Origin: a bacterium | GTDB lineage: Bacteria > Pseudomonadota > Gammaproteobacteria > Burkholderiales > Thiobacillaceae | Length of the DNA stretch: 64,000 bases | Assembly: GCA_009772925.1 (NCBI GenBank) | Contig: WOUQ01000009.1 | Coordinates: 1-64,000 of the forward strand | Direction: 5' to 3' | Part shown: in pieces, positions 2,923 through 21,432 of the stretch | How the letters are laid out: each line of letters starts with the position of its first letter | How positions within the stretch are numbered: position 1 is the first letter of the stretch | Made by a program: the position numbers and the translations under genes | Notes under the pieces: model-generated | Seen by the model: only the letters and a program-made list of their open reading frames with translations | What the model was told of the DNA's origin: nothing | The model's database searches: none

Positions 2923-5209
2923 AGCCGGAAATGCTCCGTGACAGGACATCGAGGGGATTCGGCCCCAGCTTGGTGAGCCCTCTCAGTTCGAGTTGCAGGT
3001 AGAAGGCATTGGAGGATTTCTCCTCGGTGGTGACCAGACGCTGCAGCACGCCACGCAACGACCAGCAGCCGGCGTTGTATTCGAGGCCGGCCAGGCCTTC
3101 CACCAGGCGGCTGTCCTGCAGGGAGTAATTCAGGCGGCCAACGCCATACCACCTCCGCGCCAGCGGCCACTGCGCCGACAGATCGAGCTGGTTGACGGAA
3201 TTGTCGTCGTTGGTGAGGTCCTTGTAGTAGCGGTAATCGATGTTGAACACCCGCCCCGGACCGTCCCGATAGGCGCCGCCGATATTGCCCCTGACCAGAT
3301 CACTGTCGCTGGTGTTGTACTGGATGCCGGACTGCACGCGCCACTGCCGGGTAAGCTGGCCGCTGATACTGGCGATGACGTCCGAGGTATTGGCGCTGTT
3401 CACGTCCGTGGTCGGCGTCAGGCCGACGCGCTGGTCCTCGAAGTAACGCACCTGGCCCAGAGTGACCTGCAGGCGCTCGATGCCGTTTTCCCGGTCGAGG
3501 AAACGCGAGGTCAGGGCCAGGGTGAGCTGGTTGGCGTCGTTGACGCGGTCGCCGCCGGAAAACTTGTTCTCGCTGAACATCTCGTCGAGGGACAGATCCT
3601 TGAGGGCGCTGTCGAACACGGGCATGCGGTCCTGATTCTTGTAGGGAATGTTGACGTAGAACAGGCGGGGTTCCAGGGTCTGGGTGTACTTGCCCTCGCC
3701 CAGCAACCAGTCCCGCTCCAGCAGGAGATTGGCGTCCAGGCTGAACACCGGCAGGCTGCGGCTGGCATCGGTATAGCCGCGGGCCGGCGCCGCGGCCGCA
3801 ACGGAATCGGGATCGTTGACCGTGTCACTGTCGAGGAAATAACGGGTGTAATGCCAGCCCAGCCGCGGGGTGATGGTGGAATAGGTGGTCTTCAGCGGCA
3901 TGCGCACGCTGGGATAGGCCTGCAGACGACCGCCCTGCACGAAATCGCCGCCACGATGATCGAACTGCACGAATTCGCCGGCGAAATCGAACAGGGCCCA
4001 GGACTGGCCCGGCACCTGCCGGTTGGCGGTGAGCAGGAGCTGGGGCACGCGGTGATAGGGTTCGGTGACGGGGGCGTCCGGGTCCTGCAGGGTCTGGTAG
4101 CGCTGGTACAGGCCGCTGGCCCGCCACCAGCCGCCGTCATAGCTCAGGCTGCCCTGCTGCGGCAGGTTGACGCGCGAGGTCTGGCTGATCAGGCTGGACA
4201 GGTCGGCGAAGTAATCGTCGTCGGACACCCGCTCATAGTGCAGGCTGCCCGACCAGCGCTCGCGGAAGCGATGCTCGTGTTGCAGCACGACGTTGTAGCG
4301 GTTGCGCTCCGCCTGTTGGTCGTCGGGCAGGTATTCCCAGCGCAGGTCGCCCTTGTATTCGTGCTCCTGGTCTTTCTCGAGGTAGCGAAAATCGGTGGCC
4401 AACTGCGTGCCGCGCTTGCTCATGTAGCGCGGCGAAAGGGTGAGGTCGCGGTTGGGCGCGATGTTCCAGTACCACGGCACCACCAGTTCGACGCCGCGTT
4501 CGTCGGAGGCGCCGTAGGACGGCGCCAGGAATCCGGTCTTGCGACTGTTGTCCAGGGAGAAGTCCATCCACGGCGCATAGAGGATGGGCACATCCAGGAA
4601 CTCGACGCTGACGTGGCGGGCAGTGCCGACGTTGCGGGTGTAATCGAGGTCGAGATCGCGCATTTTCAGCAACCAGTCGTCGTTGCCGGCGGCACAGCTG
4701 GTGTAGGTGGCGTCTTCCAGTTCGTAACGGTCCACGCCGGCGAAATTGAGGGTGTCGGCGCCGCCGCGCGAACGCCGTCCGTCCGGGGCATAGACCTCGT
4801 AGCGCACTGCACGCGCGCTGCCCAGGCGGGATTCGAGCTTGAGCCGCAGATCGCCGCTCTCGATGCGGTCGCGGTTCTGGCTGTAGACCACGCGACCGCG
4901 CGCCTCGACCTCATCCTCGACCTGGTCGTAGCGCAGCCAGTCGGCCTCGATGCGCTCGCGCAGATTGCGCACGACCACCTTGCCCTCCGCCACCACCTCG
5001 CGGCCCTCCTGGCCGGCGATGTGGTCGGCCTCCAGGTGGGTCGGCCCGGGCGCCGGCAAGACCTTGACGGCGGGACCGCTCAGCTTGCCGCTCGACTTCA
5101 GCAGCAGCGGCGGAACAGCGGCCAGCGTCGCCGTATGCCATCCCGCGATGGCCGTTGCCAGGCACAGGAAGAGAAACGGGCGCGCGAAAGGCGGCACGGC
5201 GGACTGCAT
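2888..5209 (-). CDS. lptD: LPS-assembly outer-membrane protein LptD
   Basis: 773 residues, the usual size. A signal peptide of about 30 residues is followed by the periplasmic OstA/LptA-like jellyroll (about 55-165, including THLEADHI and VVAEGKVVV) and a long aromatic-rich beta-barrel domain ending in NPLDVLSRSISGYAKSDE. With LptE it inserts lipopolysaccharide into the outer leaflet. The mature chain has only two cysteines, C172 and C715, whereas the E. coli protein has four; this leaves a single possible jellyroll-barrel disulfide. It is first in the lptD-surA-methyltransferase operon and divergent from amgK. A DsbC isomerase gene, the enzyme class that rearranges LptD disulfides, lies 5.5 kb away. 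Confidence 0.95.
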   Translation of the reverse strand: MQSAVPPFARPFLFLCLATAIAGWHTATLAAVPPLLLKSSGKLSGPAVKVLPAPGPTHLEADHIAGQEGREVVAEGKVVVRNLRERIEADWLRYDQVEDEVEARGRVVYSQNRDRIESGDLRLKLESRLGSARAVRYEVYAPDGRRSRGGADTLNFAGVDRYELEDATYTSCAAGNDDWLLKMRDLDLDYTRNVGTARHVSVEFLDVPILYAPWMDFSLDNSRKTGFLAPSYGASDERGVELVVPWYWNIAPNRDLTLSPRYMSKRGTQLATDFRYLEKDQEHEYKGDLRWEYLPDDQQAERNRYNVVLQHEHRFRERWSGSLHYERVSDDDYFADLSSLISQTSRVNLPQQGSLSYDGGWWRASGLYQRYQTLQDPDAPVTEPYHRVPQLLLTANRQVPGQSWALFDFAGEFVQFDHRGGDFVQGGRLQAYPSVRMPLKTTYSTITPRLGWHYTRYFLDSDTVNDPDSVAAAAPARGYTDASRSLPVFSLDANLLLERDWLLGEGKYTQTLEPRLFYVNIPYKNQDRMPVFDSALKDLSLDEMFSENKFSGGDRVNDANQLTLALTSRFLDRENGIERLQVTLGQVRYFEDQRVGLTPTTDVNSANTSDVIASISGQLTRQWRVQSGIQYNTSDSDLVRGNIGGAYRDGPGRVFNIDYRYYKDLTNDDNSVNQLDLSAQWPLARRWYGVGRLNYSLQDSRLVEGLAGLEYNAGCWSLRGVLQRLVTTEEKSSNAFYLQLELRGLTKLGPNPLDVLSRSISGYAKSDEFDLAE

Positions 5210-15094: not shown

Positions 15095-15366
15095 TAGCAG
15101 CCTGTCGGATTTTCCCCGTGGGTGCGCCGGGGGCGATTTTGGTCCAGGGCAAGGCGCGGCGAAGCGCCGTTTGGTCATTCCAAATAAGCGAGCCGCAACA
15201 CCGCCCTGGGCCAAAAGCGCCCCCGGCCCTTCGGGTTGGGCGTCCGGGCGGCGTCTGCGGCGTTGCAACGCTTGCCCATGGAATGACCATGGGCCGCGCG
15301 ACGCGCCTTGCATCCATCCGCCCGGACGCCCAACGCATCCCACGGGGAAAATCCGACAGGCTGCTA
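15095..15366. repeat. ~272-bp three-stem structured element, copy 1 (MITE-like)
   Basis: Perfect 28-bp terminal inverted repeats (15095-15122 and 15339-15366, starting TAGCAGCCTGTCGG) enclose two internal hairpins: stem A pairs about 15126-15150 with 15203-15228, stem B pairs 15235-15251 with 15318-15334 (17 bp perfect). The loops carry a shared motif, once direct and once inverted, around GGTCATTCC...AAGCG...GCAAC. No transposase or convincing coding frame. The element occupies most of the 387-base gap between divergent apaG and rpe. Copy 2 at 20576-20844 has the same layout and core with different stem sequences. Confidence 0.85.
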
Positions 15367-18585: not shown

Positions 18586-19086
18586 TCAGGCCTTGCCGAT
18601 GAGCGCGTCGATTTCCTGCTCCGCGTCGAACCAGTCCTGCATCTCGTAGCCCGGCGCAAAACCGCGTTTTTCGGCACGGTGATAGGCCGCCGTGGCGATC
18701 CAGCGCTGGCGCTCCTCGGCGGAAGGCGCCGCGGGTTTGTCGACGAGCTTCTTCGCGGTCGCCTTCCTGGCCCCCCCGCTGGCCGACTTCGCGGTGCTCG
18801 GCTTGGCCGTTGCCTTGGCGGCTGGTTTCTTTGCCGGCTTGCTGGCGGCGGCCTCGGCGACCGCCGCCTTGACCGGTTTGGCGGCGGCCGGGGCCTTCGC
18901 GACCTTCGCGGTCTTGTCGCTCTTTTCGGCCTTGGTGGTCTTCTCCGCCTTCGTGGTCTTCGCGGCCTTCGCGGATTTTGCCTCCGGCGCCTTCACGGAT
19001 GCCGATTTCGCGGCCTTCACCGATTTTTCGGGCGTGCCGCCCGTCGCCTTGGTGACCTTGGTCTTCGTTACCTTCACTTCACTCAT
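18586..19086 (-). CDS. Histone H1-like Lys/Ala-rich protein with C-terminal DUF2934
   Basis: 166 residues from ATG 19086, which has GGGGGAG five bases upstream. Residues 1-115 are a low-complexity tract of lysine, alanine, threonine and proline with repeated KxAKAAK/KTTKAEK units, like bacterial histone-H1-type DNA-binding tails. Residues about 125-160 (RWIATAAYHRAEKRGF then WFDAEQEIDALI) match the small helical DUF2934 domain. A nucleoid or nucleic-acid-binding role is inferred from charge only. Convergent with trpE. Confidence 0.8.
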   Translation of the reverse strand: MSEVKVTKTKVTKATGGTPEKSVKAAKSASVKAPEAKSAKAAKTTKAEKTTKAEKSDKTAKVAKAPAAAKPVKAAVAEAAASKPAKKPAAKATAKPSTAKSASGGARKATAKKLVDKPAAPSAEERQRWIATAAYHRAEKRGFAPGYEMQDWFDAEQEIDALIGKA

Positions 19087-19240: not shown

Positions 19241-19984
19241 TTAGACCTTGACGTATACCCAGCCCTGGCCCATGCGGGTCATGATGGCGTTGATGGCGGA
19301 CGAGGCGGTGTGGGCCACCGGCAGCAGATTCACGCGCACACCTTCGCGCTTCAGGCGCGCGACGGTCTGGCCGCAGGCCACGAAGCTGAGGTTGGCGTGG
19401 CGTCGCGCCATGTTTTCGATGCGATCGCGCAGGGGCGTGACGTCGGCACGCAACAGATCCAGGCCATAGCTGTTGGCGACGATTTCGATGCGCGCCGAGG
19501 GTTGTCGGTCGAGCAGCGTATCAGCCAGGTCGAGCACCTGCGCCAGCCGTCCCGGCTCGCCGGAATCCAGGTGCAGGATGACCTTGTCGCGATCCACCCG
19601 CTCGCTCAGGGCGATGGCCTGGTAGCCGTCGGGCAGGCCGGCCAGGCGGTCGTAGCCGGCCGGGGCGGCGCTGAAGTCCCGTGCCATCCAGCCCGCGCCC
19701 AGGCCCAGGACCAGCAGCACGCCCGCCGCCAGGGCCTGGGGAACGCCGTGCAAAGCGGGCCGCCGGGTCCGCGCCGGCGCCGCGGGTACCTCGCCGTAGG
19801 CACCCCGGACCATTTCCTTCAGGGTGCGCATTTCGCAGGCGCGCGCCTTGAAGGCGGGATCCGATTCCAGCAGGGTCATCACGTGGGCGCGTTCGTCGGC
19901 GGTCAGTTCGCCGTCGAGGAAGGCGTTGAGATATTCCGGGGTCGGGCTGATACCGCCGGCGTCGCGCGTGTCCGATTCCTTCAT
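19241..19984 (-). CDS. Anti-sigma factor with periplasmic DsrE-like sensor domain
   Basis: 247 residues. The N-terminal anti-sigma domain (about 15-65; YLNAFLDGELTADERAHV) lacks a CxxC zinc site. One transmembrane helix (about 83-100) is followed by a DsrE/DsrF-like domain (about 132-247; VILHLDSGEPGRL, FVACGQTVARLKREGVRV, GWVYVKV at the end) with one conserved cysteine, C204. The secreted DsrE protein encoded divergently at 20971 has the matching VCRNTLKG cysteine and the same ending GYVYLKP. The ATG overlaps the sigma-factor stop (ATGA) and has AGGAGG upstream, so the pair is co-translated. The domain is expected to face the periplasm and sense a thiol or sulfur signal (inference). Confidence 0.85.
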   Translation of the reverse strand: MKESDTRDAGGISPTPEYLNAFLDGELTADERAHVMTLLESDPAFKARACEMRTLKEMVRGAYGEVPAAPARTRRPALHGVPQALAAGVLLVLGLGAGWMARDFSAAPAGYDRLAGLPDGYQAIALSERVDRDKVILHLDSGEPGRLAQVLDLADTLLDRQPSARIEIVANSYGLDLLRADVTPLRDRIENMARRHANLSFVACGQTVARLKREGVRVNLLPVAHTASSAINAIMTRMGQGWVYVKV

Positions 19985-20547
19985 TTGATCCTCCTGATGA
20001 CGGTTCGCCCGTCGGTGCGCTCGGCCGGCGCGGTCTGATCCGTCGAGAGATGTTGTTTCAGGGCCTGCCGGGCCCGCGACAAACGGCTCATGATCGTCCC
20101 CACCGGCACCTCCAGGATGCGGGCCACATCGGCGTAGCCGCATTCCTCGATATCCACCAGGGTGATGACCTGGCGCTGGCCGATGGGTAGGCGCGCGATG
20201 GCCCGGCGCACCCGCTGGACGGCCTGGCGGCTGGCGTAGTGCTGCTCCGGGCCGGGTTCCTCGGAATAGATGGCTTCATCCAGCTCCGACACATCCACGA
20301 AATCCCGCCGCGCGCGCAGATGGTCGCGCCAGCAGTTGTTGAGGATGGAGAACAGCCAGCTCTCCAAAGCCTGCTCGTCGCGCAGCTGCTCGCTCCGCGT
20401 CAGCGCCTTGGCCAGGGTGTCCTGCACCAGGTCGTCCGCCAGCGCGGCATCGTGGCACCAGGCATAGGCCAGGCGATGCAGGCGCGGACGCAGAACCTCC
20501 AGCCGGCGACGGGCGGGAAAGTTCAGTAGGGAAAACAGGTTGCGCAT
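19981..20547 (-). CDS. ECF-type RNA polymerase sigma factor
   Basis: 188 residues. Region 2 is RLAYAWCHDAALADDLVQDT with the core-binding helices and -10 recognition segment SWLFSILNNCWRDHLR; region 4 is LPIGQRQVITLVDIEECGYADVARILEVPVGTIMSRLSRAR, a helix-turn-helix. Regions 1 and 3 are absent, as in ECF factors. It is the first gene of a two-gene operon with its membrane anti-sigma factor. An ECF-type promoter on the same strand lies about 300 bases upstream, and a structured repeat element lies in between. Confidence 0.93.
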   Translation of the reverse strand: MRNLFSLLNFPARRRLEVLRPRLHRLAYAWCHDAALADDLVQDTLAKALTRSEQLRDEQALESWLFSILNNCWRDHLRARRDFVDVSELDEAIYSEEPGPEQHYASRQAVQRVRRAIARLPIGQRQVITLVDIEECGYADVARILEVPVGTIMSRLSRARQALKQHLSTDQTAPAERTDGRTVIRRIK

Positions 20548-20575
20548 CAGGCGAGCCGATCGGCGTGAGGCATTA

Positions 20576-20844
20576 AGAACCTATTTCAGTAGGAATCATG
20601 CCCCGCGCCGTTGGTGTGCGGGATGCAGTGCAAGGCGCGGGGGGCGCGGTTTGGTCGTTCCAAACAAGCCACCCGCAACGCGGCAATGCGCCCGCACACC
20701 AACGGCCCTTTGGGTTGAGGCCAGGAACGGCGTCTGCGGCGTTGCGGCGCTTGGCCATGGAATGACCATGGCCGGCGCGTCGCGCCTTGCATCCATCCGT
20801 TCCTGGTCTCAACGCGGGGCATGATTCCTACTGAAATAGGTTCT
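20576..20844. repeat. ~269-bp three-stem structured element, copy 2, in the sigma-operon leader
   Basis: Perfect 32-bp terminal inverted repeats (20576-20607 and 20813-20844, starting AGAACCTATTTCAGTAGG) enclose stem A (20607-20622 with 20691-20706, 16 bp perfect) and stem B (20714-20730 with 20797-20813, 16 of 17). The loop core CGTCTGCGGCGTTGC and CCATGGAATGACCATGG is shared with copy 1, but all three stems differ in sequence. Its right edge coincides with the predicted start site of the ECF operon transcript and its left edge is 29 bases before the sigma start codon. Confidence 0.85.
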
Positions 20845-20848
20845 AAGT

Positions 20849-20878
20849 TTAGGACGGGCCGGGTAGTCAGAATATTCC
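20849..20878 (-). promoter_or_regulatory. ECF-type promoter for the sigma/anti-sigma operon
   Basis: Read on the minus strand: -35 GGAATA (20878-20873), 16-base spacer, -10 CGTCCTAA (20856-20849). This fits the GGAAC-N16-CGTC class of ECF promoters and suggests autoregulation. The predicted start site (about 20842) is at the edge of the structured element. Confidence 0.65.
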
Positions 20879-20895
20879 ATGCCGGGACATGGAAT
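20874..20895. promoter_or_regulatory. Palindrome joining two divergent ECF promoters
   Basis: ATTCCATG-N6-CATGGAAT, perfect eight-base arms. Each arm contains one of the two opposed GGAATA-type -35 elements (one begins a base outside the arm). Confidence 0.75.
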
Positions 20896-20919
20896 ACATC
20901 GCCCGCCCGTTGCGTCTTA
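20891..20919 (+). promoter_or_regulatory. ECF-type promoter for the secreted DsrE-family gene
   Basis: -35 GGAATA (20891-20896), 16-base spacer, -10 CGTCTTA (20913-20919), giving a predicted leader of about 45 bases before the ATG at 20971. Same hexamers and spacing as the opposed promoter at 20849-20878. Confidence 0.65.
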
Positions 20920-20970
20920 TCACGGTGGACCCTACCACCCACATGACCAATCACCCCTCTGGAGAAGACC

Positions 20971-21432
20971 ATGCATCGCATCCCCCTGTTCGCCGCCCTG
21001 TTGAGCGCCGCCCTGATCCTGCCCGCCGCCCAGGCCTCGACGCCCGCCAAATCCGCCAAACCGGCCTCCGAAGCCGCCGCGCCCCAGGAAAAGGTGGTCT
21101 ACCACATCAATGATTCCAGCGTCGCCCGCGTCGCCCTGCGCAACGCCGAGAACCATCTGGTTGCCAGCCCCGGCGTGAAGATCGTGGTGGTCACCCACGG
21201 CAAGGGCATCGACTTCCTGCTCAACGACGCCAAGGACGACAAGGGCGCCTACGCGCCCCAGGTGGCCGGCCTGAAGGAGAAGGGCGTGGAGTTTCGCGTC
21301 TGCCGCAACACCCTCAAGGGCCGCAACCTGGACGACAACGCCGTGATCCTGGAAGCCCAGGTGGTTCCCGCGGGTGTCGCCGAGATCGGCCGTCTGCAAG
21401 CCCGGGAAGGCTACGTTTACCTCAAACCCTGA
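20971..21432 (+). CDS. Secreted DsrE/DsrF-family protein
   Basis: 153 residues. A signal peptide ending AQAS is followed by a short Ala/Lys-rich linker and a DsrE-like fold (about 40-153; VVYHINDSS, GVKIVVVTHGKGIDFLL, GVEFRVCRNTLKGRNL, GYVYLKP). The single cysteine C111 lies at the position used for sulfur transfer in related proteins and matches C204 of the anti-sigma factor encoded divergently. A CTGGAGAAGACC ribosome site precedes the ATG. An ECF-type promoter upstream makes it a likely regulon member of the neighbouring sigma factor. Biochemical function unknown. Confidence 0.85.
   Translation: MHRIPLFAALLSAALILPAAQASTPAKSAKPASEAAAPQEKVVYHINDSSVARVALRNAENHLVASPGVKIVVVTHGKGIDFLLNDAKDDKGAYAPQVAGLKEKGVEFRVCRNTLKGRNLDDNAVILEAQVVPAGVAEIGRLQAREGYVYLKP

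Follow-up and report, generated by a model that had tools for sequence, protein, structure and literature searches.

Anti-sigma factors of the RseA/MucA type consist of an N-terminal sigma-binding domain, one membrane helix, and a periplasmic part. Control of sulfur oxidation by extracytoplasmic function (ECF) sigma factors is in itself already known. One study reports on the sulfite-responsive factors RpoE4 and RpoE1 of Sinorhizobium meliloti (ECF26), which control sorT (PMC3511301), and a second on sigma2 and sigma7 of Arcobacter butzleri, ECF factors that regulate sox genes in opposite ways (PMC3445524). Few Sox regulators are established, according to the discussion (section 12) of a third source, which also names SoxR (ArsR type), the TspS/TspR two-component system, and the CsoR-like TTHA1953 (PMC10318464). 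Here, we describe a module in a 64,000-nucleotide stretch of a Thiobacillaceae genome (contig WOUQ01000009.1; the whole stretch is called the window below), in which the genes for an ECF sigma factor and for an anti-sigma factor with a DsrE-like periplasmic domain, both on the (-) strand, are arranged divergently from a (+)-strand gene for a secreted DsrE-family protein. This circuit, a DsrE-domain anti-sigma factor with a divergent secreted DsrE gene, had been noticed in a preliminary description and is confirmed here. We computed its domain make-up, its conservation, the pairing of its promoters, the occurrence of its promoter motif at some DsrE and sox genes that are unlinked to it, and its co-occurrence with SoxB. 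The best reading, which we hold to be probable, is a trans-envelope, sulfur-sensing ECF switch of sulfur-oxidizing bacteria.

The window anti-sigma factor shares the RseA/MucA-type layout, with a DsrE-like domain predicted as its periplasmic part. The S. meliloti system is likewise an ECF/anti-sigma pair tied to sulfur oxidation, and RpoE4 resembles the window circuit in having a small, autoregulated regulon, with sorT adjoining the rpoE4 operon. Compared by description, it differs in that the target is a sulfite dehydrogenase and COG5662 is the domain given for the anti-sigma factors; the sole match to "dsre" in the available portion of that paper is DsRed (PMC3511301). The A. butzleri factors are a prior case of ECF sigma factors affecting sox genes, but, again compared by description, they belong to an epsilonproteobacterium and to an overlapping network of several ECF factors, and no mention of DsrE was found in the available portion of the text (PMC3445524). 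SoxR, TspS/TspR, and TTHA1953 control thiosulfate-oxidation genes too, yet each of them is either a regulator that binds DNA or a two-component system, and none is a membrane anti-sigma factor with a DsrE domain (PMC10318464). Known members of the DsrE/DsrF family (the MTH1491-like 1L1S, ST0148, and YchN) have homology or a fold in common with the window proteins, and MTH1491 and ST0148 carry a cysteine at the same aligned place; in contrast to these proteins, one copy is secreted here and one is anchored within an anti-sigma factor. We found no description of an anti-sigma/DsrE fusion among the titles and beginnings of abstracts listed by the literature searches, and ECF-classification tables may hold one. 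What is new here is the link of a DsrE-domain anti-sigma circuit to thiosulfate oxidation.

The sigma gene (19981..20547, (-); 188 aa, P0003) matches Pfam Sigma70_r2 (PF04542) and Sigma70_r4_2 (PF08281) above cut-off. Its stop codon overlaps, via ATGA, the start of the anti-sigma gene (19241..19984 including the stop, (-); 247 aa, P0001). On the other strand, the secreted protein (20971..21432 including the stop, (+); 153 aa, P0002) has a signal peptide at about residues 1-22, judged by eye, and matches Pfam DsrE with an E value of 1.4e-11 and 45.0 bits against a gathering score of 22.7. The reading frames of all three genes are intact. In the anti-sigma protein, Pfam calls no domain in the C-terminal part, where we place a DsrE-like domain at about residues 132-247 (19244..19591, (-)), beyond the reach of Pfam. 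Residues 134-246 match the DsrE-fold protein MTH1491 (1L1S) in a phmmer search (E 2.7e-7), and the match reaches E 1.2e-13 when 15 relatives are combined in a profile. A profile-profile comparison (hhalign) of the domain with ten secreted DsrE proteins gave a probability of 99.2 and an E value of 6e-20, with C204 of the anti-sigma protein aligned opposite C111 of the secreted protein. From sequence, both the secreted protein and the anti-sigma domain are assigned to the DsrE/DsrF family. An AlphaFold model of the secreted protein was partial and of low confidence (pLDDT 55; few-sequence alignment), and its top structure in Foldseek was 1L1S (E 1.7e-4).

We then followed the two cysteines through 87 extended loci, which hold 89 fusions and comprise 27 close stretches and 60 stretches from a class-wide sample; the latter cover 62 of the 85 full-length class rows besides the window's own, mostly the best-scoring ones. 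The sensor cysteine (Cys204; codon 19373..19375, (-)), a proposed sulfur-binding residue, is a cysteine in 89/89 fusions, and that of the secreted protein (Cys111; codon 21301..21303, (+)) in 68/68 secreted relatives. The preliminary description had proposed both that the C-terminal domain is DsrE-like and that it matches the secreted protein with corresponding cysteines, and both proposals stand. It had also called the secreted protein a soluble version of its own sensor. Taken as a copy, this was not borne out by a tree of 69 domains, which uses 31/89 fusions and 34/68 secreted proteins, omits the rest, and has few alignment columns: a branch with support 100/99 divides the 31 sensor domains from the secreted proteins, which indicates that the two are old paralogs. 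Since the sensor domains fall into one separate group, we rejected a recent duplication of the neighboring gene as their origin.

The remainder of the anti-sigma protein was assigned as follows. It lies directly after the ECF gene and has a single predicted membrane helix at about residues 82-100 (19685..19741, (-)) with an arginine-rich N-terminal flank, as expected of a membrane anti-sigma factor; a low-confidence model gives a helix at 81-100. A simple hydropathy test for such a helix was passed by 71/89 fusions, and a script found the sigma gene in position for 88/89 fusion records, missing it in L154. The putative cytoplasmic anti-sigma domain, about residues 1-65 (19790..19984, (-)), is suggested by this position behind the ECF sigma gene and by weak profile matches: zf-HC2 from Pfam at E 0.0069, below cut-off, and the N-terminal domains of MucA and RseA at E 0.13 and 0.16, respectively. 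Within this domain, C50 (codon 19835-19837) is kept as a cysteine in 71/89 fusions. The HxxxCxxC zinc motif is absent from the window's anti-sigma protein, although C50 is mostly conserved in the fusions.

Between the divergent genes lie two promoters, GGAATA-N16-CGTCCTA for the sigma/anti-sigma operon (20850..20878, (-)) and GGAATA-N16-CGTCTTA for the secreted DsrE gene (20891..20919, (+)), assigned by motif and conservation. They face outward with their GGAATA -35 boxes 12 bp apart, and the identical -35 boxes, 16-base spacers, and CGTC(C/T)TA -10 boxes are exactly as first described. The pattern GGAATA-N16-CGTC has two sites in the 423-bp intergenic region versus a mean of 0.00025 in dinucleotide shuffles. 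In the whole window genome (3.2 Mb in 76 contigs, estimated to be 100% complete), GGAATA-N16-CGTCYTA with at most one mismatch matches only the two divergent promoters, and a reversed control pattern has one match. We infer that the motif is the promoter of this sigma factor.

In the leader of the sigma gene, downstream of the sigma promoter, we found a 269-bp element with perfect 32-bp inverted ends (20576..20844, no strand assigned), which the preliminary description had not noted and which is present in three full copies (95-100%) in the window genome, this one included. Its site is empty in a sister genome (G020) whose anti-sigma protein is 98% identical, and the distance from the sigma promoter -10 box to the sigma start is 305 bp in the window versus 35 bp in G020. 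A diverged partial relative of the element, with 81% identity over query positions 51-224, lies elsewhere in the window (15145-15320). The insertion raises the idea that the window organism's circuit is a decaying or rewired remnant, reduced to its own and the DsrE promoter and carrying a repeat element in the sigma leader; the presence of just two motif sites in the window genome, none of them at its own sox cluster, would fit. However, the three genes are uninterrupted, the two promoters, both full matches to the motif, are conserved in G020, and the same-genus genomes G015, G016, and G020 show motif sites only at the same place. We regard a remnant as unlikely.

We surveyed genomes for anti-sigma/DsrE fusions beside DsrE genes, as the preliminary description had suggested. 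Full-length fusions are present in 27 of 61 genomes (the window's own and its relatives, own included), in 66/369 genomes of the class sample, and in 3/398 genomes of a phylum sample, all three from the window's order. The 66 fusion genomes were listed by hand (match start <=13, end >=240), with G319 and G150, which are cut at contig edges, and the partial G324 excluded. The DsrE gene is divergent in 52/88 records and co-directional in 9/88. A sigma-side motif is present in 67/88 records and a divergent-side motif in 43/88; across the 87 loci, motif density is 1.48/kb beside sigma genes versus 0.021/kb elsewhere. Among the 27 close loci, 25 have the sigma-side promoter and 20 have a divergent DsrE gene. 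The DsrE-side promoter is found in 19 of these 20 and in none of the 7 loci that do not have the gene; the paired promoters are thus conserved and track the presence of the DsrE gene. In each of two loci (L158 and L162), the sigma/anti-sigma-DsrE module occurs twice in tandem, and either end of the locus has a DsrE gene.

These counts bear on an alternative in which the periplasmic DsrE-like domain is a docking platform, not a sensor, and the bound secreted DsrE protein reports the sulfur state or shields the anti-sigma factor from proteolysis. The model for such an arrangement is RseB, which binds RseA, and DsrE-family proteins form oligomers. Docking would suit a sensor and a secreted protein that are homologous and have a conserved cysteine in common, a pair encoded together in 61/88 records, and sensor domains whose group is old and separate, a pattern to be expected if the two are partner subunits. 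On the other hand, the stretches fetched for 27/88 records contain no DsrE gene in divergent or co-directional position (some end at contig ends), and the invariance of the sensor cysteine would need another reason. We take docking seriously while judging it to have somewhat less than an even chance.

The survey also returned a second type of fusion, a zinc-type anti-sigma domain joined to DsrE, at full length in G046 and G802 (2 of the 61 genomes searched) and as a further match over residues 31-231 in G834. The L113 example (4187-4885) has Pfam zf-HC2 and DsrE both above cut-off, and the tree places its DsrE domain within the secreted proteins, which speaks for an independent second joining. 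The ECF sigma factor that accompanies this type in L113 and L241 is a different one, and L113 again has a divergent DsrE gene. In L117 (4875-8148), DsrE and cupredoxin-like genes are divergent from another ECF/anti-sigma pair, with a GGGAATAAA-like sequence between.

We next considered targets away from the sigma gene. GGAATA-N16-CGTCNTA has 38 sites in the 61 genomes, and the reversed control has 8. Of the 38, ten are off the fusion loci, three of them directly upstream of unlinked secreted DsrE genes (G002, G018, and G021), and a site with a 15-base spacer lies at an unlinked secreted DsrE gene in G015. When unlinked DsrE loci were fetched, the motif was present in 4/9 from fusion genomes (three of the four known from the prior motif search) and in 0/10 from genomes without this fusion. 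At fusion loci where the divergent promoter is not followed by a DsrE gene, it faces a porin in L159, L171, and L269, and it faces a 5'-nucleotidase-type metallophosphoesterase in L167, L181, and L194 (named by Pfam for L194). Relatives of one porin occur in 42/87 loci; two porins that were scanned gave no Pfam match, and the name porin rests on reading the sequence. Downstream of DsrE and porin genes in L198, a YeeE-like protein matches Pfam Sulf_transp. Single sites in trans face five targets named by reading: in L253 a DsrE-like gene, in L257 the gene for a YeeE-like transporter, in L254 a lipoprotein that reads as a hydrolase of the metallo-beta-lactamase type, in L252 a HAD-like protein exported by Tat, and in L255 cutA-dsbD. 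In relatives, the circuit is larger than first drawn, with porin, sulfur-transporter, and sox genes added.

Several sites were set aside: those in L165 and L175, judged by eye to lie within the cutA coding sequence; the divergent motif of L157 and L160, which faces only antisense-looking frames with no nameable target; the identical sites G007:C24 and G011:C289 together with five other off-locus sites; and the site in L251, which is not oriented toward the sox operon. Separately, downstream of the module in L050 (7836-10998), rhodanese-like, TusA-like, DsrE2, and molybdopterin oxidoreductase genes form a sulfur-transfer cluster, DsrE2 and the oxidoreductase being named by Pfam and the other two by reading.

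The link to thiosulfate oxidation came from three kinds of observation. First, SoxB is present in 65/66 fusion genomes versus 84/303 others (Fisher 3e-29, shared ancestry not corrected), calls being made at a best E value of <=1e-130 in 149 genomes; the search tool's own cut-off gives 148, the difference being G159, in which the match is split at a contig edge. Second, the module can adjoin sox genes directly. In L174, soxX, soxY, soxZ, soxA, and soxB come after the sigma/anti-sigma pair in the same orientation (five NCBIfam matches above cut-off); L183 has soxXYZAB in the same arrangement, assigned by similarity to the L174 proteins; and in L060, the genes that come after the pair on its strand are soxY, soxA, and soxB, all named above cut-off. 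Third, the strict motif occurs upstream of sox genes in 9/30 loci from fusion genomes versus 0/20 controls (two-sided Fisher 0.007, kinship uncorrected), and in five of the nine it stands before both soxX and soxB. The 30 loci were chosen from the 65 SoxB-positive fusion genomes, not by motif, with L174 and L183 excluded and L060 belonging to another sample; the 20 controls were chosen from the 84 SoxB-positive genomes without a full-length fusion. Three loci fetched through motif matches (L250, L251, and L256) were left out of this count, which is 11/33 with them; among them, the motif precedes soxB in L250 and a sox cluster starting with soxX in L256. A tight form of the motif is found in 17/66 fusion genomes versus 4/303 others, with shared ancestry again uncorrected; its 19 sites in the 17 fusion genomes are divided between the fusion locus itself (11) and elsewhere (8), and two of the four non-fusion genomes that have it (G243 and G400) are <90% complete and come from genera that also include fusion genomes. 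In L114, from a genome without the fusion, a DsrE relative sits inside a sox cluster (DsrE, SoxY, and SoxB named).

The same data could be explained by a general envelope or redox stress circuit whose sulfur linkage arises only from the lineages being sulfur oxidizers. Shared ancestry could account for part of the 65/66 co-occurrence with SoxB, the regulon in the window's own genome is just two promoters, and 21 of the 30 sox loci from fusion genomes do not have the motif. Against such a circuit, several genomes have the motif before soxX and soxB and before genes for DsrE, sulfur transporters, and porins, and in none of the 20 control loci does it precede a sox gene. We consider a general stress circuit improbable, even more so than a remnant. 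The preliminary description had left the signal as a sulfur or redox state of the periplasm; of these two, a sulfur signal gains indirect support from the sox linkage.

A sulfur-sensing switch connected to sox genes has to be weighed against a set of contrary results. The strict motif is absent from 21/30 sox loci of fusion genomes. The window genome's own sox cluster (L258) has no motif either (best score 1.0), and with the motif only at the two divergent promoters, direct sox control in that genome is not supported. One fusion genome (G115) does not have SoxB. Among the controls, the fusion-free status of G121 is uncertain, since this genome has a strong match to the sensor-type DsrE domain that does not include the N-terminal part, and G404 has one tight motif elsewhere. 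At unlinked DsrE genes of fusion genomes, five of the nine fetched loci (L104, L105, L106, L117, and L118) do not have the motif, and seven of the ten off-locus sites are not at DsrE genes and are mostly unexplained. For the proteins themselves, the AlphaFold model of the anti-sigma factor is poor (pLDDT 50; few-sequence alignment), and Foldseek returned nothing significant with it, the DsrE-fold structures 2pd2 and 1jx7 appearing at E 0.7-0.8; the DsrE claim for the sensor accordingly rests on sequence profiles. The anti-sigma domain is assigned mainly by position. Lastly, the 269-bp element might weaken or alter expression of the sigma factor.

We propose the following mechanism for the sulfur-sensing switch, in which we infer the signal, the cysteine chemistry, the release of sigma, and the role of the soluble protein. 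The anti-sigma factor would retain the ECF sigma factor at the inner membrane, and its periplasmic DsrE-like domain would read a reduced-sulfur signal, most likely at the invariant Cys204. Candidate signals are thiosulfate-derived sulfane sulfur, polysulfide, and sulfur that SoxYZ or the soluble DsrE protein carries. The signal would free the sigma factor, which would then transcribe its own operon and GGAATA-N15/16-CGTC promoters. The core target would be the secreted DsrE protein; in relatives, an outer-membrane porin, a YeeE-type sulfur transporter, and sox genes may be targets as well. The soluble DsrE protein is probably a carrier of sulfane sulfur in the periplasm, and, with a fold like that of the sensor, it may dock on the sensor or compete with it. 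It may also titrate the ligand as feedback, as the preliminary description had suggested.

Directly downstream of the module, the (-)-strand gene at 18586-19086 encodes a lysine- and alanine-rich, histone-H1-like protein with no NCBIfam match.

Relatives of the circuit are found mainly in bacteria that have thiosulfate-oxidation genes, which it probably helps to regulate. We see a slightly better than even chance of the broader claim that, in many gammaproteobacterial (including betaproteobacterial) sulfur oxidizers, the DsrE-domain anti-sigma factor serves as a periplasmic receptor dedicated to sulfane sulfur and regulates Sox-dependent thiosulfate oxidation, the fusion having arisen at least twice. 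How thiosulfate oxidizers sense their substrate is poorly known. If the proposal is true, these environmentally important organisms would have a widespread and testable Sox regulator, ECF signaling would gain a new sensor domain, there would be a route to a reduced-sulfur biosensor, and secreted DsrE proteins would have a suggested role in Sox-linked periplasmic chemistry.

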